From Flavobacteriales bacterium (GTDB taxonomy: Bacteria; Bacteroidota; Bacteroidia; Flavobacteriales; JANQLC01), in assembly GCA_028280815.1 (NCBI GenBank), contig JANQLC010000020.1, positions 1 through 43,243 of the forward strand: DNA of 43,243 bases, given 5' to 3'. The notes below the pieces were generated by a model that saw nothing but the letters and a program-made list of their open reading frames with translations, ran no database searches and was not told the DNA's origin. Below, one piece after another: positions 5,450 through 43,243 of the stretch; positions within the stretch are counted from its first letter, which is position 1; each line of letters opens with the position of its first letter. The position numbers and the translations under genes are program-made.

Positions 5450-6530
5450 AAAGCACTTGTACAGGGTAAAAGTCAGGGGGGCTGACCCGATCGGATTGAC
5501 CGTATGATTGGACTTTTGCAACCGTGAAGCAGCTTAGGGATAAAAGACAAGTCCGACCTTTTAAACTGCCTCGCACAGAGAATCCCAAAAAATAAGACCG
5601 TCAGGCGGATTTTCCACAGGGGCAAACACAAAAAACCACCCACGCCTTGTAAGCTGGCCATTGAAAATAGGAAAGCACGTCCTGTCGCATCTTCAAACCG
5701 ATTCAACGTCAGATATACAACAAAAGTCAGCTGCGCTGACCACAGGAAAAATAAGGGCCAATTCTCAGACGCCGTACAGGGGAAAAACCTTTTTAAACCC
5801 TTATAAAAGGTTAAAGGTGATAAATCTCCTGTTTTCAAATCGCTTTACCTAGGATGCGAACAAAAAACAAGTCCTGCTTTTCAAGCCCTCTCACAGCGAT
5901 AAAACCAAAAAATAACCCCGCCTTTTCAAGCCGTTCCCGCAAGTACAAATACCAAAAAACCGCTTTTCAGTCCAATGCAAAGGGGCAGCAACAAAAAATG
6001 AGCACCGCTTCTTAAAACAAGGCGAAAGGGCAAGAGCAAAAAAATAGGTCCCTCTTTCAAACAAGGGCCAATAGGGTCAACCACAGGGACAAAGACAGAA
6101 GACCAATCCTCTTTTTCAAACTGATCTACACAATGCAAAAAGACAAGACCCGCGTTCCAGGCAGCCCTCGCGACAAGAGACAAAGCCCATTTCCCAAGCC
6201 GTCAACCGGAAACAAAAAACAACAGTTCCCTTTCAGACTGGCTCACAGGGATAGATACAAGAGAAGAAACCGCATTTTCAATCCGCCGCACAGGTCAGAA
6301 AAAACAAAATCAGATTTACAAAACGCTGCGCACGGATAAATAGAGAGGAGCAAGACCCGATTTCAGGCCGTCAACCGAGGGCAAAAAACAAGTCCGGTTT
6401 TCAAACCAATCCCCTCAGAGGCAAACGCAAAAAACAAGACCTGCTCTCAGACTGCTAACCACACAGCTTCCAACCTCGTCACCGTTTTAAGGCGAAAGAA
6501 CGCCCCGCCTAAAGCACGTGTAAAGGACTG
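5450..6530 (-). repeat. Long tract of degenerate family A repeats
   Basis: About 1.1 kb between ansA and tatD. On the plus strand a loose unit recurs every 40-50 bases: CAAAAAACAAG or CCAAAAAATAA, then two to six bases rich in C and G, CTTTTCAA or TTTTCAAGCC, then CACAGGGACAAA-like sequence (landmarks near 5861, 5905, 5952, 5991, 6037, 6136 and 6211). At 5726-5740 lies the perfect inverted repeat GTCAGCTGCGCTGAC followed by CACAGG, the same core as at three other loci. Units are too diverged for an exact tandem array. No credible gene, tRNA or clear rho-independent terminator is seen within it. The tract reads in the opposite orientation to the copies at 1.5 and 31 kb. Confidence 0.65.
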
Positions 6531-16379: not shown

Positions 16380-17290
16380 GGGACGATTCGTTTTGTCCCC
16401 CAGGCGTCCCAATGGCCGATAGAGGGAAGCAAAATAAGCCCTTTCAGATCGACCTACAGGAGCAAAAATAAGCCGGGATTTTCAACTGCTCCATGCGAGA
16501 AACACCAAAAAACAAACCCTTTTTTAAACCGCCTATCAAGAGCAAAACCCCCCTTTTAGCCCGTACAAAAGCGCAAACGCCAAAGCGTAAAGCTGAGGGT
16601 TAGACCGAGTCCTAGGACAAAAGCGGGAACCCTTTCCAAAGGGTCTCCTTCAAGACAAACACCAAAAAACAAGGCCGGTCCTATCAACCCATCGCACAGC
16701 AAAGGACGAGATCAAGTCCCTTTTTCAAGCCATCAACCCAGCCCAATCCATGCAGTCCAAACTAAGCCCCACCTAAGCTAACCCAACCACTCAACTCAAC
16801 CGCTCAAACCAGCCCATTCAATCCGTTTAAGCCATCCCCATACGATAGACAAGACCTGCTTTCAAAACGCCACGCAAGGACAAATACAAAAAAGACCCTC
16901 TTTTTAAATGCGCCATAGAGAGAAAATAAGATCAGCCTTTTCAAACTGATACCACAGGACAAAGACAAAGCCCGCCTTTCAGGGCCAACGCAAAGGACGA
17001 AAAACAAGGTTGGCTTTTCAGACGTGCTTCAGATTAGAATATGCGACAAAATTCACAGCCTCGACCTGACCAGGTGCCCGCCTCTTACCAAACCCGCGTG
17101 GCGGGTCAGCGCAGCTGACCACAGGGACAAAAGCAAAAAACACCGCCGCTTTCAAGTTGAACCCAGGGGACAAACACCAAAAAATAAGGCTGGTCTTTTA
17201 GGCCGATAAAAAGGATAAAAACAGAAGCGTAAACCACCCCAGGAGCCGTTCCAGGTCCTCAACTGTGGGAATCTGGGCAAAAACGCAAAA
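16380..17290 (-). repeat. Second long tract of family A repeats with a short family B-like patch
   Basis: About 0.9 kb between the LRR remnants and apbE. Units such as CACCAAAAAACAAACCC, CCAAAAAACAAGG and CACCAAAAAATAAGG recur with CTTTTCAA or TTTTTAAACC and CACAGGGACAAA between them. At 17105-17119 lies GTCAGCGCAGCTGAC, a perfect inverted repeat followed by CACAGGGACAAA, the same core as at 5726 on the same strand. Bases 16738-16830 are a C/A-rich patch (CCCAATCCATGCAGTCC; AACCCAACCACTCAACTC) resembling the G-depleted tracts at 25.7 and 41.9 kb, linking both families. No gene is recognised. Confidence 0.65.
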
Positions 17291-18443: not shown

Positions 18444-18751
18444 CGATATTTTCTACATGTGACTCCCTGCAAAAGCGAGGTGAATGAAGACAGGTTGCAG
18501 AATGTCATGGCGTTTCCAACGGTTTGATTCCAACCTTTTGATTCTGAAACACACACGGATTAAATATTTCAGCTTCGTTTTCCCAACCCTCGTTACAAAA
18601 TACCGTTTTTTACCCATTGATCCGATGCAAAGACCTGCTCTCAGCGGCTTAGTCCGCCTGCATGGGGTATAACACAGCTCCGCACCTGTGTTTTCACAAC
18701 CCGATCTTTCCACTGTTTCTAACTGATTTTATTAAAACGGGGCGTAGCGAC

Positions 18752-18782
18752 TTTGAAAATGCAATCGCTGTTGCTACATTTG
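18752..18782 (+). promoter_or_regulatory. Canonical promoter TTTG-N19-TACATTTG, duplicated copy
   Basis: TTTG at 18752-18755 and TACATTTG at 18775-18782 with exactly 19 nt between them. The intervening sequence (AAAATGCAATCGCTGTTGC) closely matches that of the minus-strand promoter at 32447-32477 (AAAATGCAGTCGTTATTAC), so this is a duplicated regulatory region and not a chance match. Confidence 0.75.
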
Positions 18783-18801
18783 TCAATTAAGACGCCGAGC
18801 T

Positions 18802-18849
18802 ATGAGAAGGCCTAACCCCATTTTAGGCTCACTAAGTTTATGTGAATAA
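18802..18849 (+). pseudogene. N-terminal stub of a deleted lipoprotein gene
   Basis: Fifteen codons MRRPNPILGSLSLCE then TAA, directly behind the duplicated promoter. The first codons align with the start of the intact lipoprotein at 31791-32417 (MRADQPILRFTLMGL). The rest of that gene, about 190 codons, is missing here, and the sequence resumes with material homologous to the region just upstream of the small membrane gene (ATGTGAATAAGT). A short inverted repeat, GCCTAA...TTAGGC, overlaps the stub. Confidence 0.55.
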
Positions 18850-18875
18850 GTTGAGCTATACACAAAAATAGGCTT

Positions 18876-19112
18876 GTGAATCGCTGGCTATACATCATCT
18901 CGATTTTCGTTCCCTTTGCGCTTTGGGGTTTGTTTTCCGCCTGGTTTCCCAAAGTGGAGCGGCCGCTGCTCTCCGTTCTGATCGTCTTTTGGATTCCCCT
19001 GATGCGCATTTTGCGGATGCCACATTTGAAATTTTCATGGAAAGAGATGTCGCTATCCCCCGCTCCTCTTTACCGCCTGAAAATTTGGATCAGGGTGTTT
19101 GCCGAGAAGTAA
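18876..19112 (+). CDS. Small two-helix membrane protein, copy 1 of a duplicated pair
   Basis: 78 residues from a GTG start. Hydrophobic segments at about 5-23 (LYIISIFVPFALWGLFSAW) and 30-45 (PLLSVLIVFWIPLMRI), then a basic/aromatic tail (HLKFSWKEM ... RVFAEK). It is 59/78 identical to the protein at 31478-31714, and many DNA differences fall at third codon positions (for example AAA/AAG, GAG/GAA, TTG/TTA), which argues that this frame is translated and selected. Both copies use GTG and share AAAATAGGCT just upstream. Homology also runs about 60 bp past the stop. It is now the first intact gene behind its promoter because the preceding lipoprotein gene has been deleted. Function unknown. Confidence 0.75.
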   Translation: MNRWLYIISIFVPFALWGLFSAWFPKVERPLLSVLIVFWIPLMRILRMPHLKFSWKEMSLSPAPLYRLKIWIRVFAEK

Positions 19113-19540
19113 CCCATGGTGTGATAGCGCACCCTATACGCGTGGTGATCGATTGTTTCTCGTCGGGATGAGCAAAAAACAAAAATGCCTTTTTTTAAAA
19201 CACCTAGGTGAATTTTTTTTAAAATAATATTTCATAAGGATGAATTTCAATTCGACAAGACTTTAAAAATACAGCGATTATTCATTGTGGAAACAGAGGA
19301 GATAAGTTACACCCTTTACAAAAATCAGAAAAACAGAAGGTACCAGCAAAAAGGATTACATATGATACAACCACGTTTCGATCAGACGAGGCGAAATCAC
19401 CCGAAATCAGCAACTCCGGATTGTAAAAAACACAAGAAATACATATCGCGCGTTGACATCTACGACACAAAGCCCGCGTTGATATAGATCGAGATGCTGG
19501 ACGAGACACGGTTTTATACCCTGCACATCGAGGCAGCTCA
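19113..19540. other. Spacer between the small membrane gene and nqrF
   Basis: The first ~60 bp continue the duplication seen at 31.4 kb. Bases 19175-19260 are A+T-rich and contain the perfect palindrome CACCTAGGTG at 19201-19210 between A and T runs, possibly an operator or a bidirectional transcript end. From 19261 to 19540 I see no gene, terminator or repeat that I can support. Confidence 0.4.
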
Positions 19541-25589: not shown

Positions 25590-25689
25590 ATTAATTTGCC
25601 GAGATGCCCTGTGAATCGTGAACTCGAAAGAGTGAACGCATGCGTTTCTCCATTTTATCGCCCTTTGCTTTACTCGTGCACAAACGAGA

Positions 25690-26580
25690 GCGGAATGACA
25701 TACACCAACCGGCAAAACCGCATAAACCAGCCGCAGAAAAGACCCATGCAAAAAATCCGAACAGGGAAAAAGCGAGAAGTCCAAAACCCACCCACACCCA
25801 TCGCAGAAAAGACCCATGCAAAAGACCCGATCCCGTCCAGCCATTGCAAATACAACACAACTCAAAATCCCCCTACGCCAACCATGAAACCCAAGCGAGG
25901 AACTCGATGAAGAACAGACCCACCCAACCCACAGAATCCAAAACCCGCCCAAGAAAAACAAATGCAAAAAACCGACCTGTGCAAGAAGCAAAAAGATAAA
26001 AAGATGAGAAGTACAAAGTACGCCTATGCCAATTATAGAAGAGGCAAGTGCAAAACCCAACCGAGCCAGCACAACAATGCACCGACAATACAACCCATCC
26101 AACCAGCCCAATCAAAGCAAGCAACCCAACAATTCGCCAGCCTACAAACGCAATCAACCAACCCAATCCAAAATCCAACTACACCAATCGCAGGAAAGAC
26201 CCATGCAAAGGGCTCGACGAAGGACAAGGGAGAAAAACGAGAAGCCCAAACCCCGCCCAGGCCAATCGCATAAAATACCCATGCAAAAAAACCCGACAGA
26301 CGGCAATCCAATCAAACGATCCAACCCACCCAATCCAAAGTCCAACTACACCAATCGCAGAGAGGACAAAGGCGAAAAATCCGACAGACGGCAATCCGAT
26401 CAAACAACCCAATCCACTGAACCGATCAATCAGCCCAACCCACCAACGCAATCCAATCCAACCAAGCCATCCATGCAGGCCAGTCCAAACAACCCAATCC
26501 AAGCCAACGCAAAGCGACACAACCAACTCAGTCAAGCCAACCGATCAACCGCAACCCGCCAACCCAACCACACCCACATA
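25690..26580 (+). repeat. G-depleted degenerate repeat tract, family B
   Basis: About 0.9 kb between the divergent nqrA and P5C dehydrogenase genes. The plus strand is dominated by C and A; the 60-base line at 26401 has only four G. A unit containing GCAGAAAAGACCCATGC, AAAAGACCCGA, CCGTCCAGCCATTGC and AAATCC recurs (for example at about 25735, 25803, 26192), and from 26080 it grades into CCAATCCAA/CCAACCCAAC microsatellite-like sequence. The same units occur at 41.9-43.2 kb. Long open frames in several frames on both strands follow from the shortage of stop codons in such sequence; none has family similarity. Confidence 0.7.
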
Positions 26581-26619
26581 TCCCACCCCAAAGCGGATTA
26601 TCCATCGCTCGCTCACACA

Positions 26620-26709
26620 GCCAAATCTCCGGGCACGGGGTTTCAACCATCCTCATGCGCAAAATCCCGATGACAAGTGGGCCAAATCTCCGGGCACGGG
26701 GTTTCAACC
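26620..26709 (+). repeat. 29-bp perfect direct repeat with 32-bp spacer upstream of P5C dehydrogenase
   Basis: Copies at 26620-26648 and 26681-26709 are identical (each begins GCCAAATCTCCGGGC and ends GGGGTTTCAACC). The 61-bp spacing recalls a CRISPR unit, but there are only two copies, no leader and no cas gene. It lies 42 bp before the -7 element of the dehydrogenase and could be a regulatory duplication. Confidence 0.7.
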
Positions 26710-26797: not shown

Positions 26798-28522
26798 ATG
26801 TCCAACGGAGCTTTTAGCATACCCCGGCCGGTTAACGAACCCGTTTTGAGCTACGCACCGGGTACCCCGGCGCGCCGTGCGCTGCAATCTGCCTATGAAA
26901 CGCTCTATCAAGCGCACACAGCAATTCCCCAATTCATAAACGGGGTGGAAATTTTCAACGGCAAAAAGATTCCCATCAGGCCCCCACACGATCATCAGCA
27001 TACGGTAGGCTATTGGTGCGAAGGCGATCAGAGCGATGTGCGAGCAGCGATCGAAGGGGCACTCGAGGCGCGCAGCCGATGGGCTGCTGCGAGTTGGGAG
27101 CAGCGCGCAGCCATCTTTTTAAAGGCGGCCGACTTAATCGCAGGGCCCTATCGCGCCCAAATCAATGCCGCCACCATGATCGGGCAGTCCAAAAACGCGA
27201 TTCAAGCAGAGCTCGATGCAGCCTGCGAGTTGGTCGACTTTTTGCGCTTCAACGCCTACTATATGGAACAGATTTACAAGGAACAACCCGAATCGACAGC
27301 AAGCATCTGGAACCGCATGGAATACCGTCCGCTCGAAGGCTTTACCTTCGCGATAACCCCTTTTAACTTTACCGCAATTGCCGGCAATCTGCCGAGCTGC
27401 ATGGCGCTGATGGGCAATGTAGTGGTGTGGAAGCCCTCCGATAAGCAAGCCCTATCGGCCCACTACCTGATGAAGGTATTTCGAGAATCGGGGCTGCCCG
27501 CCGGCGTTATCAATATGGTGATGGGCGACCCGGCTGAAACGGCAAAAACGGTTTTTGGCCACCCGGACTTTGCCGGCGTCCATTTTACGGGCTCTACCCA
27601 GGTCTTTAAAGACATCTGGGAAGCGGTTGGAAAACATATTCACACGTATAAAACCTACCCGCGAATTGTAGGGGAAACCGGCGGTAAGGACTTCGTCATC
27701 GCCCACCCGACCGCACAGCTCAAACCGTTAGCCACCGCCCTGTCCCGAGGCGCTTTTGAATACCAAGGGCAAAAGTGCTCCGCCGCTTCCCGCGCTTATC
27801 TGCCCAAGAGCCTGTGGGAAGAGGTCAAAGAAACGCTCAACCGGCAGATCGAACGCATGAAGATGGGCAGCCCTGCGGATTTCGGGAATTTTATCAACGC
27901 GGTAATCGACCGAAAAGCCTATAACCGCATCACGGCTTACATCGAACGAGCCAAAGAGAGCACCGAAGCGGAAATCATCTCAGGGGGTGCGTTTGGTGAC
28001 GCAGAAGGGTATTTTATAAGTCCTACGGTCATCCAAACCACAAATCCAAAGTACGAGACCCTGGTGAAGGAGATCTTTGGGCCGGTGTTGACCGTATATG
28101 TGTACGAAGATGAAAAATGGGATGAAACCTTGGATTTGATCGATGAGACTTCCCCTTATGCCCTGACCGGTGCGGTGTTCAGCCAGGATCGCTACGCCAT
28201 TGAAGCGGCTACCGAAAGATTGGCCGATGCAGCCGGCAACCTGTACATCAATGACAAACCCAGCGGCGCTGTGGTGGGCCAACAACCCTTTGGCGGCGGA
28301 CGCGCCTCAGGCACCAACGATAAGGCGGGCTCCAAGCTAAACCTATTGCGCTGGACATCGCCCCGAACGATTAAGGAAAACTTCATCCCCCCCACCGATT
28401 TCCCTTACCCCTTTATGGAAAAGGGCGGTAGAGAACAGGTCGAAGAACAGGTCAGGGAAGCCGTGCACAAACTCAAGGACCTGGGGAGCGATATCGTGAG
28501 CCGCCTAAGCGAGAAAAAGTAA
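26798..28522 (+). CDS. 1-pyrroline-5-carboxylate (glutamate-semialdehyde) dehydrogenase
   Basis: 574 residues; stand-alone P5CDHs of the Bacteroidota/eukaryotic type are about 540-550. It oxidises glutamate semialdehyde to glutamate with NAD+, the second step of proline catabolism. Landmarks are AITPFNFTAIAGNLP, WKPSDKQALSAHYL, VHFTGSTQVFKDIW, ETGGKDFVIAHP, catalytic Cys327 in GQKCSAASRAY, EIFGPVLTVYVYED, and NLYINDKPSGAVVG with FGGGRASGTNDKAG near the C-terminus. About 25 charged residues follow the usual end (GREQVEEQVREAVHKLKDLG). Proline dehydrogenase is not in the window. Other aldehyde dehydrogenases share the fold, but the SGTNDKAG-type ending is specific to P5CDH. Confidence 0.95.
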   Translation: MSNGAFSIPRPVNEPVLSYAPGTPARRALQSAYETLYQAHTAIPQFINGVEIFNGKKIPIRPPHDHQHTVGYWCEGDQSDVRAAIEGALEARSRWAAASWEQRAAIFLKAADLIAGPYRAQINAATMIGQSKNAIQAELDAACELVDFLRFNAYYMEQIYKEQPESTASIWNRMEYRPLEGFTFAITPFNFTAIAGNLPSCMALMGNVVVWKPSDKQALSAHYLMKVFRESGLPAGVINMVMGDPAETAKTVFGHPDFAGVHFTGSTQVFKDIWEAVGKHIHTYKTYPRIVGETGGKDFVIAHPTAQLKPLATALSRGAFEYQGQKCSAASRAYLPKSLWEEVKETLNRQIERMKMGSPADFGNFINAVIDRKAYNRITAYIERAKESTEAEIISGGAFGDAEGYFISPTVIQTTNPKYETLVKEIFGPVLTVYVYEDEKWDETLDLIDETSPYALTGAVFSQDRYAIEAATERLADAAGNLYINDKPSGAVVGQQPFGGGRASGTNDKAGSKLNLLRWTSPRTIKENFIPPTDFPYPFMEKGGREQVEEQVREAVHKLKDLGSDIVSRLSEKK

Positions 28523-28911: not shown

Positions 28912-29130
28912 TCAAGTCTTTCGGGCTTTCCAGCAATTGCGAAAAAACTCTCTGATCGGGTTAAAAAAAGCAATCTCACGCCTTCTCAATTCCTCCATAT
29001 GTTTTGGAAATAAGATAATGGCTAAGTATTGCGTGCCGAGAACGAGTGGGACAGCAGCCCCAGCTGAAACACGAAAAAACCGTAAGCAAATATACCACAA
29101 GAGGGCGATTCCAATTGCGAATGCTGTCAA
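28912..29130 (-). CDS. Possible small membrane protein (start uncertain)
   Basis: 72 residues from a TTG; the frame is open for eight further codons upstream. Hydrophobic segments at about 2-17 (AFAIGIALLWYICLRF) and 23-42 (GAAVPLVLGTQYLAIILFPK), then a charged tail (HMEELRRREIAFFNPIREFF). Its FPKHMEEL resembles FPKFMGEY in the adjacent 29216-29446 protein, suggesting the two are distant paralogs. The lack of an ATG suggests either a rare start or 5' damage. Confidence 0.4.
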   Translation of the reverse strand: MTAFAIGIALLWYICLRFFRVSAGAAVPLVLGTQYLAIILFPKHMEELRRREIAFFNPIREFFRNCWKARKT

Positions 29131-29215
29131 CCCAGGCGAGCTAAAAATCGGTACCTACAATTATATATAAACGCCTCATTTTTATATTTTCCCGGTCTTC
29201 TCCTCTTCATGCGCA

Positions 29216-29446
29216 TCAGTTTTTTCTAAGGCTTTTTCTCATCCTTTTAATAAGGTTGACTTCAGAAAGGAAGTATTCCCCCATAAATTTTGGAAATAAA
29301 AAAATAATCACCCACCGTAAAAAAATTAATGCAACCACAGTGATCTCCACAACTTTTGTGCGAGGGTGATCAAAAAAGATCAAATCGATAAGCAGAAAAA
29401 CCACGAGCACAATCAGCACTGACATTCTTACAAGGGCTTTAAACAT
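29216..29446 (-). CDS. Small two-helix membrane protein
   Basis: 76 residues from an ATG. Segments at about 8-26 (MSVLIVLVVFLLIDLIFF) and 34-51 (EITVVALIFLRWVIIFLFP) are followed by a basic tail (NLIKRMRKSLRKN). Located 85 bp upstream of, and on the same strand as, the 28912-29130 gene, with which it shares an LFPK-centred block. No perfect -7 box is seen before it. Unknown function. Confidence 0.5.
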   Translation of the reverse strand: MFKALVRMSVLIVLVVFLLIDLIFFDHPRTKVVEITVVALIFLRWVIIFLFPKFMGEYFLSEVNLIKRMRKSLRKN

Positions 29447-30431: not shown

Positions 30432-30680
30432 ATGAAAAACTTACTGATTTACTACATCGCCATCTTACTCCCCATTCCGCTTATCGCCTGGAGTGCCTAT
30501 CACAACGGCATGGTTTTTCTTGTCCTGCTGCTCTCCTACGCGATGATATACAGAGGCTTTACGGATGGCAAGCGCTTACTGGAAAAAAGGCTGATCCGGA
30601 AATCTGATTTTTGGAAGGTTTTTGTCATCCCCTTTTGGGCCCGAGGGAGGTATTTTATAGAATTGTATTTTAAGAAATGA
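30432..30680 (+). CDS. Small membrane protein possibly related to the duplicated pair
   Basis: 82 residues. Helices at about 3-20 (NLLIYYIAILLPIPLIAW) and 27-42 (MVFLVLLLSYAMIYRG), then a basic loop and a tail SDFWKVFVIPFWARG ending YFKK. The overall plan (two N-terminal helices, then W-K, a hydrophobic P-F block and a Lys/Glu-rich end) matches the 78-residue proteins at 18876 and 31478, so they may form one divergent family. A good promoter precedes it. Confidence 0.6.
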   Translation: MKNLLIYYIAILLPIPLIAWSAYHNGMVFLVLLLSYAMIYRGFTDGKRLLEKRLIRKSDFWKVFVIPFWARGRYFIELYFKK

Positions 30681-30989: not shown

Positions 30990-31350
30990 TATGGGATTTA
31001 AAAAGCGGGCTTATTTTTTGTTCACCCCTGCGTAGGCGGCCTGAAAATGCAACCTTATTTCTGATTCTGCCCTTATGTGGTGGTTTAAAAAGTGGGACTT
31101 TTTTATACCTGTGTTCAGCTGCACTGACTTCTATACGTACCCCAACTCGTGGAAAGTCTGAAAAAGGGACTTTTTGGGTGTTTGTCCGTTGTGTGAGAGG
31201 GTCTAAAGTCCAATCTTTATTTTTTGTGCTTGCCCTGTATGTCGATTTGAAAAGGGGGATTATTTTTTTGCCCTTGACTTTTTGTGACGATCTGAAAGAC
31301 GGGTCTTATTTTTTGGGTGTTTTTCTCTGTGGGTCAGTTTGAAAAGACGG
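30990..31350 (+). repeat. Family A repeats, G/T-rich orientation
   Basis: Recurring GATTTAAAAAGCGGGCTTA, TTTGAAAAGGGGGATTA and TCTGAAAGACGGGTCTTA blocks, each followed by a T-run and often GTTTGTCC or CTCTGTGGG. Contains ACCTGTGTTCAGCTGCACTGA at its centre in slightly diverged form (inverted repeat 31114-31128, TCAG/CTGA). Same orientation as the tract at 1.5 kb and opposite to those at 5.5 and 16.4 kb. Confidence 0.65.
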
Positions 31351-31477
31351 TCTTTGCAAATTGGAGCCCGATCTGTGCGAAACACTTGAAGACGTACAGC
31401 ATAAAAGCCCTTCGCGAACTGGCTGAATCCGAACGAGAAATAACCCACCGCGTATATAGAGCCCCGCCGTCGTCTAT

Positions 31478-31714
31478 TTATTTCTCGGTAAACAGCCTGA
31501 TCCGAAGTTTCAAGCTGTAAAAAGGGACGACGGATAGCAACATTTCTTTCCATGAAAATTTCAAGTGCCGCATCCGTAAAATGCGTACCGAGGGAACCCA
31601 AAAGAGGATCAAAAAGGAGAGCAGCGGCCGCTCCACCTTGGGAAACCAGGCGGAAAACAAACCCCAAAGCGCAAAGGGAACAAAGGTCAAAAGGATATAT
31701 ACCCAGCGATTCAC
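31478..31714 (-). CDS. Small two-helix membrane protein, copy 2 of a duplicated pair
   Basis: 78 residues from a GTG start, MNRWVYILLTFVPFALWGLF onward, 59/78 identical to the protein at 18876-19112. Helices at about 5-23 and 31-44; conserved middle FPKVERPLL and tail HLKFSWKEM. It lies 76 bp downstream of, and on the same strand as, the lipoprotein gene 31791-32417, probably in one transcript from the promoter at 32447-32477. The complete lipoprotein + small membrane gene arrangement here is the likely ancestral one. A conserved, adjacent pair suggests the two products may work together. Function unknown. Confidence 0.75.
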   Translation of the reverse strand: MNRWVYILLTFVPFALWGLFSAWFPKVERPLLSFLILFWVPSVRILRMRHLKFSWKEMLLSVVPFYSLKLRIRLFTEK

Positions 31715-31790
31715 CAGCCTATTTTTACGTACACTGCGACTTATTCACATCCTTCACAAGGAATGAATTGAGATATGACACATCCAAGCG

Positions 31791-32417
31791 CTACACCAGC
31801 GGCACATTCAACTCCGAATGCCACACACAGCAAGCCCTCTGCAGCGCCCTTTGCACTGGCGTAATATTGGAACTGCCGTGAAACACAGTCTCCCCATCCG
31901 TTACGCCCAGGCTGAATGGGGTTCTAAAACTTTTTACCCCTGTAACCGTGCCGCTCTTTACTTGCATTTGAGCCAGACGCTGGAGACCGCTGTCAAAGTA
32001 AGATACCGTATAGGCGTGATTCCCCCTTTCTTCAATTTGAACGAAAAGTCCTTCGCGCCGCATCACCTTATCGCTCTTTGCATAGGTGAGATAATACAGA
32101 CCACCAGGTAGGGGTATGGCTATGCTCCGCACGGCTGTACCGCTATACTCCGCGACGCGGGTTTTGGATAAATTTTGGATTAACGCCGCTTTTCGGGCTA
32201 TTGACGAGGTCTTAATTATACTAGAAAGCGCTTGTATCAAACCCTCATCCGACAGCAAATAACTCCTCTTTACATTGTATTCCACTTTCGTAGCACGCGC
32301 ATTTTGATCCTGCATCAGCGGCTCGTCTTGGACATTGCGGCAGGAGAAAAACACAAAAGAGCTACCTGAGATCAGCCCCATCAAGGTAAATCTTAAAATG
32401 GGCTGATCCGCTCTCAT
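31791..32417 (-). CDS. Predicted lipoprotein of unknown function
   Basis: 208 residues. MRADQPILRFTLMGLISGSS leads to FVFFSC, a lipobox with Cys26. The mature part is mostly polar with several beta-strand-like stretches (RSIAIPLPGGLYYLTYAK; GLFVQIEERGNHAYTVSYFD) and a short helical stretch near residue 60 (EGLIQALSSIIKTSSIARKA). Two adjacent Cys (RACCVWHSEL) occur near the end. No family recognised. It has the best-matching promoter in the window, and an N-terminal stub of a paralog survives at 18802-18849. Confidence 0.75.
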   Translation of the reverse strand: MRADQPILRFTLMGLISGSSFVFFSCRNVQDEPLMQDQNARATKVEYNVKRSYLLSDEGLIQALSSIIKTSSIARKAALIQNLSKTRVAEYSGTAVRSIAIPLPGGLYYLTYAKSDKVMRREGLFVQIEERGNHAYTVSYFDSGLQRLAQMQVKSGTVTGVKSFRTPFSLGVTDGETVFHGSSNITPVQRALQRACCVWHSELNVPLV

Positions 32418-32446
32418 AATTTATCATCAGTTGGTTTACTAATCAG

Positions 32447-32477
32447 CAAATATAGTAATAACGACTGCATTTTCAAA
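32447..32477 (-). promoter_or_regulatory. Canonical promoter TTTG-N19-TATATTTG
   Basis: On the minus strand TTTG (32474-32477) and TATATTTG (32447-32454) are 19 nt apart, an exact Bacteroidota consensus. Predicted leader about 23 nt. Homologous to the promoter at 18752-18782. Confidence 0.75.
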
Positions 32478-32567
32478 ATTTCTATGCAGCGTCTCACTAA
32501 AATTTGTTCCATTGTTACAGCTCAGCAAAAATATTTATCCAGGCAGTGTCGAGCCAAAATAGAGACC

Positions 32568-34091
32568 TCAGTGCTTAAAGTGACGCATGCCGGTAAAGAT
32601 CATGGGGATGCCGTGTGCGTCAGCAGCGGCTATGCTCTCCGCATCGCGAATGGAGCCCCCGGGTTGCACGATGGCTGCAATGCCTGCGTCCGCAGCAAAA
32701 TCGACGACGTCTCGAAAGGGGAAAAAGCCATCGGAAGCCAATACCAAACCCTTGGTCTGCTTTTCTTTGGCGCGCGCCACGGCGAGCTGTGCCGCCGAGA
32801 TGCGGTTGGTCTCCCCCCCGCTTATGCCCAGGGCTCGGCCGCGATAAGCGACTGCTACGGCATTGCTCTTTACGTGCTTGACCACGCGTTGGGCGAAGTG
32901 CAGGTCTTTCAGCTGTGCCTCGGTGGGCTTTACTCGGGTGACCGGCTGCCAATCCGTCGAAAAACAGTTGTCGATCTGTTGTACCAACAACCCTCCATCC
33001 ACCTTTACGCATGCCAGTCGATCGCTCAGATCGGCCTCAATCCGGATGAGCCGCAGGTTTTTCTTTTTGGAAAAGACCGCCAGGGCTTCATCGGAAAAAG
33101 CAGGGGCTGCCACGAGCTCCAAAAAGAGCCGACACAGGGATTCAGCCGTTTGGGCGTCTAACCCTCGATTAAAGGCTACAATACCGCCAAATATGGAAAT
33201 CGGATCGCAGCGGTGGGCGCCTGACCAGGCCTCGAAAGCCGTTCTCCCTAGGGCTACCCCACAAGGGATGGTGTGTTTGACCCCACAACAAGCCGGTTCT
33301 GTAAAGTCCTGTAAGAGCCTCCAGGCCATATCCATGTCGCGTAGGTTGTTAAAGGATAGCGCTTTGCCCTGCAATTGCGCAAAGTCGCGCAGGGCGCCGG
33401 GCTGTGTGGTATCGGTGTAAAAAGCAGCCTTTTGGTGGGGATTTTCGCCATAGCGCAAATCCATGCGCTTTTGAAAGGAACCCTGGAAGTAGGCCGGCAT
33501 TTCCTCCCCCAGGAGCCGCTTGGAAATGGCCGCATCGTAGGCGGCTGTAAGATTGAATGCCTTACCCGCGAGATACTTGCGGGTTTCCAGCGCGGTGTCG
33601 CCTCGCATTTTGATCTCCTCCATCACCCAATCGTAATCGGATACATCGGAGATGACCGTCACATCGAAAAAGGATTTGGCCGCTGCGCGGAGCATCGCAG
33701 GTCCCCCGATGTCGATGAATTCGACCAGCTCCTCCAACACCATATCGCTGTTGGCATTTTCAAAAAACGGATATAGGTTGACCACCACCATACCGATGGG
33801 TTCGATGTGGAGATCCGAAAGGGTTTGCATGTGTTCGGCCCGCTTTCGCTTGGCCAGTATGCCCGCGTGCACATAGGGGCTCAAGGTTTTCACGCGCCCG
33901 TTTAGAATGGCTGGAAAATGGGTTAGCTCGGCCACATCGATGGCGTCGATCCCCTTGGCTTTGAGATGGGCCAAGGTGCCGCCGGTGGAGATGAGCTGGT
34001 AGCCTTGGGCGAATAAAAAGCCAGCCAATTCTGCGATGTGCGCCTTGTCTGAAACGCTCAGTAAAGCATTTTTTCTTATCCCTGCTCTCAT
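32568..34091 (-). CDS. purH: Bifunctional AICAR transformylase / IMP cyclohydrolase
   Basis: 507 residues from the ATG at 34091 (MRAGIRKNALLSVSDKA), with an AGAAGG ribosome-binding site upstream. It performs the last two steps of IMP synthesis. Residues 1-190 are the MGS-like cyclohydrolase (STGGTLAHLKAKGI; GRVKTLSPYVHAGIL); residues 190-507 are the formyltransferase (MDLRYGENPHQKAA; SFNNLRDMDMAWRLL; GETNRISAAQLAVARA; SDGFFPFRD). The catalytic Lys-His appears as VKHTIPCGVALG, with Ile where the family normally has Asn (KHxNPCG). Last gene of the purine operon, 70 bp after purN. Confidence 0.97.
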   Translation of the reverse strand: MRAGIRKNALLSVSDKAHIAELAGFLFAQGYQLISTGGTLAHLKAKGIDAIDVAELTHFPAILNGRVKTLSPYVHAGILAKRKRAEHMQTLSDLHIEPIGMVVVNLYPFFENANSDMVLEELVEFIDIGGPAMLRAAAKSFFDVTVISDVSDYDWVMEEIKMRGDTALETRKYLAGKAFNLTAAYDAAISKRLLGEEMPAYFQGSFQKRMDLRYGENPHQKAAFYTDTTQPGALRDFAQLQGKALSFNNLRDMDMAWRLLQDFTEPACCGVKHTIPCGVALGRTAFEAWSGAHRCDPISIFGGIVAFNRGLDAQTAESLCRLFLELVAAPAFSDEALAVFSKKKNLRLIRIEADLSDRLACVKVDGGLLVQQIDNCFSTDWQPVTRVKPTEAQLKDLHFAQRVVKHVKSNAVAVAYRGRALGISGGETNRISAAQLAVARAKEKQTKGLVLASDGFFPFRDVVDFAADAGIAAIVQPGGSIRDAESIAAADAHGIPMIFTGMRHFKH

Positions 34092-34161
34092 TGGATATAC
34101 CTTCTCATTAGAGCGCGCGGAAAGCACAGCTGACTACACACCTATTAATCCGATATTTCGA

Positions 34162-41787: not shown

Positions 41788-41816
41788 CAAAATTAAGAAT
41801 TCAGCTGCAATTCAAA
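41788..41816 (-). promoter_or_regulatory. Promoter for the purine operon (TTTG-N17-TAATTTTG)
   Basis: On the minus strand TTTG (41813-41816) and TAATTTTG (41788-41795), 17 nt apart. Predicted leader about 70 nt. No purine riboswitch fold or PurR-like operator is recognised in the leader. Confidence 0.5.
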
Positions 41817-41859
41817 TAAGCAAAACGGACTTTTTAAGCCCTCAAAGACGCCAAGGCGT

Positions 41860-43243
41860 AAAACCAACCCAATCCAAGCAACCCAACCAACAGCACAAAG
41901 CAATCCACGAGCCAATCCAGGCCGCCAATGCAACAACCCAGCCATCCGACCCACCACAACAAGGCAAAACGAGCAAGCGCAGCCAACCCAACCACCGACA
42001 ACCCAACCAGCCCACTCAATCCAGAGAAATGCAAGCCCTTATCCATACAAAAACGCATGCCGAATCAGAACGGCTCAGATAAAAGTCGCCAACCTGAAGC
42101 CCTCATCAAGCCTCGCACTCCCAATGACAAAAACGCCTTTCAACACCCGCAAAAGGACAAGACCAAAGCGCAATACCCCTTTTCAAGCCCATGCACCCAC
42201 CCAGCCGATCCAAACCACCCGCACAAAGCAAGCCCAGCCAACTGGGCTAACCCACTCAGCCCAAATGCAATGCAACCCCTCACCACCATGCAACTGCACA
42301 GCGACGAACAACCCAGTAGCAATCACACCCACGCAACCCAGTCGAAGCGCAACAATGCAAAGCAACCCATCCGTTAAAACGAGCCAGCCAAGCCATGCAT
42401 TCGTGCAAATAAAACCACCCAAATGACAACAAACAACGCAAACCAACTAACCAAACCAGCGCAAAGGGACAAAACCAACCCAACCAAGCCACACGACCCA
42501 AAATCCAGTCAAACCATATCGTAGAAAAACCCATGCAAAAGACCCGACCCCGCCCAGCCATTACAAATGTGATACGACCCGAAATCCACCCATGCCAACC
42601 GCAGAAAGGACAAATACAAAAAACCTGACAAAGGACAAAAACAAAGCAGCCCAAAAGCCACCCTACCCACCGTAGAAAAACCCATGCAAAAGACCCAACC
42701 CCGTCCAGCCATTGCAAATGCGATACGACCCGAAATCCACCCATGCCAACCGCAGAAAAGACAAATACAAAAAACCGACAGCCGGCAACCCGATCAAACG
42801 ACCCGACCGACATACTCAAACACCAGCCCACTGAACCAATCGCCCCGATCAACCCAATCCAACCAGCCCATGCAAGAATAAAACACCAACTCAAAGCCCA
42901 CGCACGCCAACCGCAGAAAAGACAAATGCAAAATCCACACACATAGGGACAAAACGGCTCAAAAACCCAATGAAGGACGAGGAAGAGAAACGAGAAGTCC
43001 AAAACCAGCCAACTCAATCAGCTCAAAGAATAAGTGGCGCCAGCCCACTGAAGAACGCAGCTCAAGCCAATCCAAGTCAACCCAATGCAAAACCCACTCA
43101 ATCCAGCCCATGCAACAAACAACTCAGTCGAAGCGCACCAACCGCACCCAACGCACCAACCCACTGAACAAATCGAGCAGTCCAACCCACGCAACCCAAA
43201 ACCCGCCTATGCCAACCGTAGAAAAACCCAGGCAAAAGACTCG
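41860..43243 (+). repeat. Second G-depleted repeat tract, family B, runs off the window end
   Basis: 1.4 kb upstream of the purine operon. Starts with CCAACCCAATCC/CCAACCAAC microsatellite-like DNA and contains near-identical longer units: one from 42521 (GTAGAAAAACCCATGC, then AAAGACCCGACCCCGCCC, CAGCCATTACAAATG, CGACCCGAAATCCACCC) and another 151 bp later at 42672, with a further partial unit at 43218. The same unit, somewhat diverged, occurs at about 25803. Open frames of up to about 245 codons on the minus strand reflect the base skew. No gene, tRNA or terminator is recognised. Confidence 0.7.

Follow-up and report, generated by a model that had tools for sequence, protein, structure and literature searches.

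Proteins of the NqrM family (DUF539, PF04400) have conserved cysteines. In V. cholerae, NqrM is a small membrane maturation protein that is encoded after nqrF and co-transcribed with nqrABCDEF (PMC12174285). Two broader classes are also close to the locus described here, i.e., small inner-membrane proteins with two hydrophobic helices and a basic end, and orphan (ORFan) bacterial small membrane proteins (fewer than 80 residues, two predicted helices, a basic tail, and occurrence in one lineage). The published consensus of promoters read by the primary sigma factor of Bacteroidota comprises the elements TTTG and TAnnTTTG (PMC6847099).

The window analyzed here (43,243 nt) is a complete contig from the genome of a Flavobacteriales bacterium (1.59 Mb, 92% complete). 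It contains two loci, copy A and copy B, that encode a small protein with the properties of both broader classes, although its helix model is of low confidence. In contrast to the ORFan class, the small gene exists as a diverged paralogue pair, one member of which lacks the upstream lipoprotein gene. Its likeness to NqrM is that of a small membrane protein encoded next to nqrF and apbE. We consider it probable that an orphan two-gene unit was duplicated and then internally deleted in one copy, where the two-helix inner-membrane protein survives. The features of the two loci are as follows.

18721 to 18782, plus strand: upstream block of copy A, matching copy B at 46 of 62 bases, with an exact consensus promoter (TTTG-N19-TACATTTG) at 18752 to 18782.
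18802 to 18849, plus strand: 15-codon leader open reading frame (MRRPNPILGSLSLCE, then stop), a likely remnant of the lipoprotein gene start that weakly matches the first codons in copy B.
18840 to 18875, plus strand: short leader directly before the small gene of copy A, homologous in both copies (28 of 36 bases identical).
18876 to 19112, plus strand: small membrane protein gene of copy A, 78 codons, GTG start.
19113 to 19172, plus strand: 3' tail of copy A; homology with copy B continues here, interrupted by several indels.
31425 to 31477, minus strand: 3' tail of copy B, homologous to the tail of copy A.
31478 to 31714, minus strand: small membrane protein gene of copy B, 78 codons, GTG start.
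31715 to 31750, minus strand: leader directly before the small gene of copy B, matching copy A at 28 of 36 bases.
31791 to 32417, minus strand: putative lipoprotein gene, copy B only, 208 codons, with a signal-peptide-like start and Cys26.
32447 to 32508, minus strand: upstream block of copy B, with the promoter (TTTG-N19-TATATTTG) at 32447 to 32477.

Copy A (18721 to 19172, plus strand) is homologous to copy B (31425 to 32508, minus strand) over a 331-nt alignment (80% identity, E = 1e-77), and the two have in common an ungapped 273-nt block (84% identical) that includes the intact small gene. The promoter blocks formed a separate alignment (E = 3e-9; 1.1e-4 when the block was searched against the whole genome). 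The homologous parts thus flank an internal gap, where copy A is without approximately 600 nt of copy B that make up nearly the entire lipoprotein gene. The duplication proposed in the initial annotation was borne out by this pairwise alignment of promoters, flanks, and small gene, as was the intactness of the latter: the two 78-codon genes encode proteins that are 76% identical without gaps. The search of the genome for more copies that it had recommended returned none beyond A and B at E <= 10.

Both copies carry the motif TTTG-N19-TAnnTTTG exactly (18752 to 18782, plus strand; 32447 to 32477, minus strand), with no notable difference from the Bacteroidota primary-sigma promoter, whose elements are approximately 19 to 20 nt apart. 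With spacers of 18 to 20 nt, the motif occurs 59 times in the genome, versus 24 times for a reversed control, and it lies 25 to 46 nt ahead of rpsL, rplM, and rplS (genes named by eye) and before other housekeeping genes. In copy B, the motif is followed after 29 nt by the ATG of the lipoprotein gene. Copy A has the ATG of the 15-codon frame 19 nt past the motif and the GTG of the small gene 93 nt past it; the leftover frame therefore sits where a first gene would normally be. The promoter and its spacer had been said to match between the copies, which holds for the motif but not for the stretch from promoter to ATG (19 versus 29 nt).

Where the lipoprotein gene begins, 19 of 25 bases are the same in the two copies (ATGAGA...CCCATTTTA), and the homologous codons of copy A keep the reading frame of the lipoprotein signal peptide encoded by copy B. 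The earlier proposal that the first codons of the lipoprotein survive in copy A is consistent with this match, which is positive but weak (P = 0.0145 if collinear, 0.04 over the whole stretch). The signal region of the lipoprotein (MRADQPILRFTLMGLISGSSFVFFSC) was read by eye, with FFSC as a loose lipobox. Synonymous codon use favors a real gene for the putative lipoprotein (P = 0.0013), less strongly than it does the small gene. Pfam and NCBIfam contained no matching family for the putative lipoprotein, our searches found no relatives of it, and no convincing displaced remnants of it were detected elsewhere within the window.

The two small genes differ at 35 of 237 nt (202 identical, no gap), by 21 replacement and 14 silent changes. 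The initial annotation had reported many differences at third codon positions; this impression was not upheld by the counts at positions 1, 2, and 3 (16, 7, and 12), for which a random-placement null gave P = 0.60 at the third position. Its claim that a working small gene was retained gained from codon usage, with synonymous choices like those of housekeeping genes in copy A (P = 0.001) and copy B (P = 0.0003) relative to 17 long genes of the window, but not from the dN/dS test that it had proposed. A simple count gave a ratio of 0.41, and a maximum-likelihood codon model, fitted with a strong transition bias under three frequency models, gave 0.65 to 0.66, indistinguishable from 1 (p = 0.27 to 0.31). 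The coding part is less diverged than the matched flanks (35/237 versus 24/98 differences, p = 0.04), and a 69-nt core tract has only two differences, both synonymous (P = 0.008), so that 23 consecutive residues (11 to 33) are invariant; the flank and tract tests were picked after the alignment had been seen, and their P values are optimistic.

These data bear on two other readings of copy A. A decaying pseudogene, whose frame stays open through modest divergence and because stops are rare on a strand poor in A, would agree with the dN/dS result, with the probability of 0.24 that the same substitutions placed at random create no new stop, with the +2 frame being fully open in both copies as well, and with the GTG start. 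That this start has no A at position -3 counts against the main reading. It is nevertheless unlikely, as copy A has kept its housekeeping-like codon use, has no indels in the small gene, and retains both the invariant 23-residue core and an intact consensus promoter. The conserved core, inside which lies a 44-nt identical run (P = 0.016), could also stem from a recent conversion event between the two inverted genes instead of from selection for the protein. The tract is short, however, and constraint on a membrane hairpin and loop would explain the missing replacements equally well, which leaves conversion very doubtful. The small gene appears to be real in both copies, and both are probably still translated; the case for its being under natural selection is weak. 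A function independent of the lipoprotein is plausible; it can only be inferred, because copy B could still provide the lipoprotein in trans. The +2 frame itself was rejected as a true gene (codon usage P = 0.23 and 0.69; raw dN/dS of 1.36).

The direction of change can be approached from the genomic surroundings. Copy B adjoins purH. Copy A lies inside a gap of 1,175 nt between nqrF and apbE, on the opposite strand. In 14 of the 29 relatives' loci examined, apbE is the codirectional neighbor of nqrF, the spacing being -53 to 417 nt; most of the remaining loci had no apbE inside the fetched flank (approximately 1.5 kb). Copy A is therefore a probable newcomer, i.e., the inserted daughter. The initial annotation had proposed that the locus was duplicated and that copy A has lost the lipoprotein gene; this synteny lends further support to that direction. 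The reverse course would begin with an ancestral unit of promoter, leader frame, and small gene, the arrangement of copy A, with the lipoprotein gene arriving in copy B by insertion. It gains from the weakness of the leader match (P = 0.01 to 0.04) and from the lack of a relative that polarizes the change; no outgroup sequence that fixes the ancestral state was found. Yet what the copies share at that point is the in-frame beginning of a lipoprotein signal peptide, and the site of copy A is closed in relatives, so that A is probably the younger locus. Insertion in copy B is thus quite improbable, and the synteny and the weak leader match make deletion in copy A the better reading.

The position of copy A between nqrF and apbE, together with the absence of any PF04400 match in the genome, could also suggest an assembly or maturation helper of Na+-NQR that stands in functionally for NqrM. 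This is scarcely credible. Copy A is encoded on the strand opposite that of the nqr operon, nqrF, and apbE, and unlike V. cholerae NqrM it is not co-transcribed with them; the second copy sits beside purH; and relatives that carry nqrF lack the small protein, which would make it dispensable for Na+-NQR in general. As an NqrM protein proper, it was ruled out by this orientation, by the lack of cysteine in either copy, and by the lack of an NqrM profile match to either (E <= 1).

Under deletion in copy A, a two-gene unit restricted to the source lineage, consisting of a Bacteroidota-type promoter, a putative lipoprotein, and a small two-helix protein, would have been duplicated in inverted orientation approximately 12 kb away, the daughter landing in the nqrF-apbE junction. 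The daughter would then have lost approximately 600 nt, from about codon 9 to 13 of the lipoprotein to 36 nt before the small gene, and its promoter may now drive the small gene almost directly, behind the 15-codon leftover frame.

The small protein has a net charge of +8/+9 and hydropathy peaks above 1.6 at residues 4 to 25 and 30 to 49 in copy A, the second helix being just under the cutoff in copy B. A structure model of low confidence (mean pLDDT 66) predicts helices at residues 2 to 23, 28 to 47, 50 to 60, and 63 to 77. Sequence and model are consistent with a hairpin in the inner membrane. By the positive-inside rule, both of its ends would be cytoplasmic; the short loop (FPKVERP), which is conserved, would face the periplasm, and the strongly basic tail would form amphipathic helices that lie on the membrane. 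An accessory membrane peptide working via protein-protein contact in the membrane is the most likely role, a guess from size and topology, and its function may be described no further than as a small accessory inner-membrane protein. Between the paralogues, 15 of 19 replacements fall after residue 33. It is rather doubtful that the protein represents a new family of functional, free-standing membrane peptides, in which the first helix and loop were kept while the second helix and basic tail diverged, each copy serving a different partner, one lipoprotein-coupled and the other not.

The small gene is known so far only from the source genome. No credible match was found in sets of 60 and 396 genomes of the order, the weak ones having internal stops or being at chance level; these relatives were order-level, with none from the family of the source genome among them. 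Species genomes yielded none in a search that needs exact short peptide seeds and that distant relatives can escape. No match was found among viral contigs, plasmids, and phages or among PDB sequences, a Pfam scan of both small proteins gave no family at E <= 1, and a fold search gave nothing at E <= 0.001. The only structured RNA within the window was a tRNA. For an orphan gene family to be duplicated and then to lose part of one copy is ordinary and opens no new mechanistic question. As an example of partial loss after duplication, the locus is clean: the tiny orphan membrane gene, which annotation can easily overlook, outlasts its larger partner. It also illustrates that a within-genome paralogue and codon usage can back a small gene that has no relatives elsewhere.

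Three more orphan open reading frames (72 to 82 codons, hydrophobic helices, net charge +7 to +9) are located at 28912 to 29446 and 30432 to 30680. Two of them (28912 to 29130 and 29216 to 29446, both minus strand) have a common LFPKxM stretch (E = 0.003) and may be diverged paralogues; the third (30432) comes with a promoter motif and shows good codon usage. None of these frames, at 28.9 to 30.7 kb, is significantly similar to the duplicated small protein. A 574-aa open reading frame at 26798 to 28522 resembles 1-pyrroline-5-carboxylate dehydrogenase (read by eye). Only in three families of the order (f4, f6, and the tiny-genome f16) is PurH 52 to 61% identical to the PurH encoded here (32568 to 34127); for the rest, identity is approximately 36 to 44%, which suggests two PurH lineages or transfer. 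Intergenic blocks at 25600 to 26700 and 41800 to 43243 are very A/C-rich on one strand (GC skew to -0.42, AT skew to +0.63) and consist of degenerate repeats of approximately 50 to 100 nt, e.g., AACCGCAGAAAAGACCCATGCAAAA; similar sequence seems to be present on other contigs. A second type of degenerate intergenic repeat, roughly CACAGGGACAAACACAAAAAATAACCCCGCTTTTCAAGCCG, forms irregular arrays at 5600 to 6300, 17100 to 17210, and 31000 to 31340.
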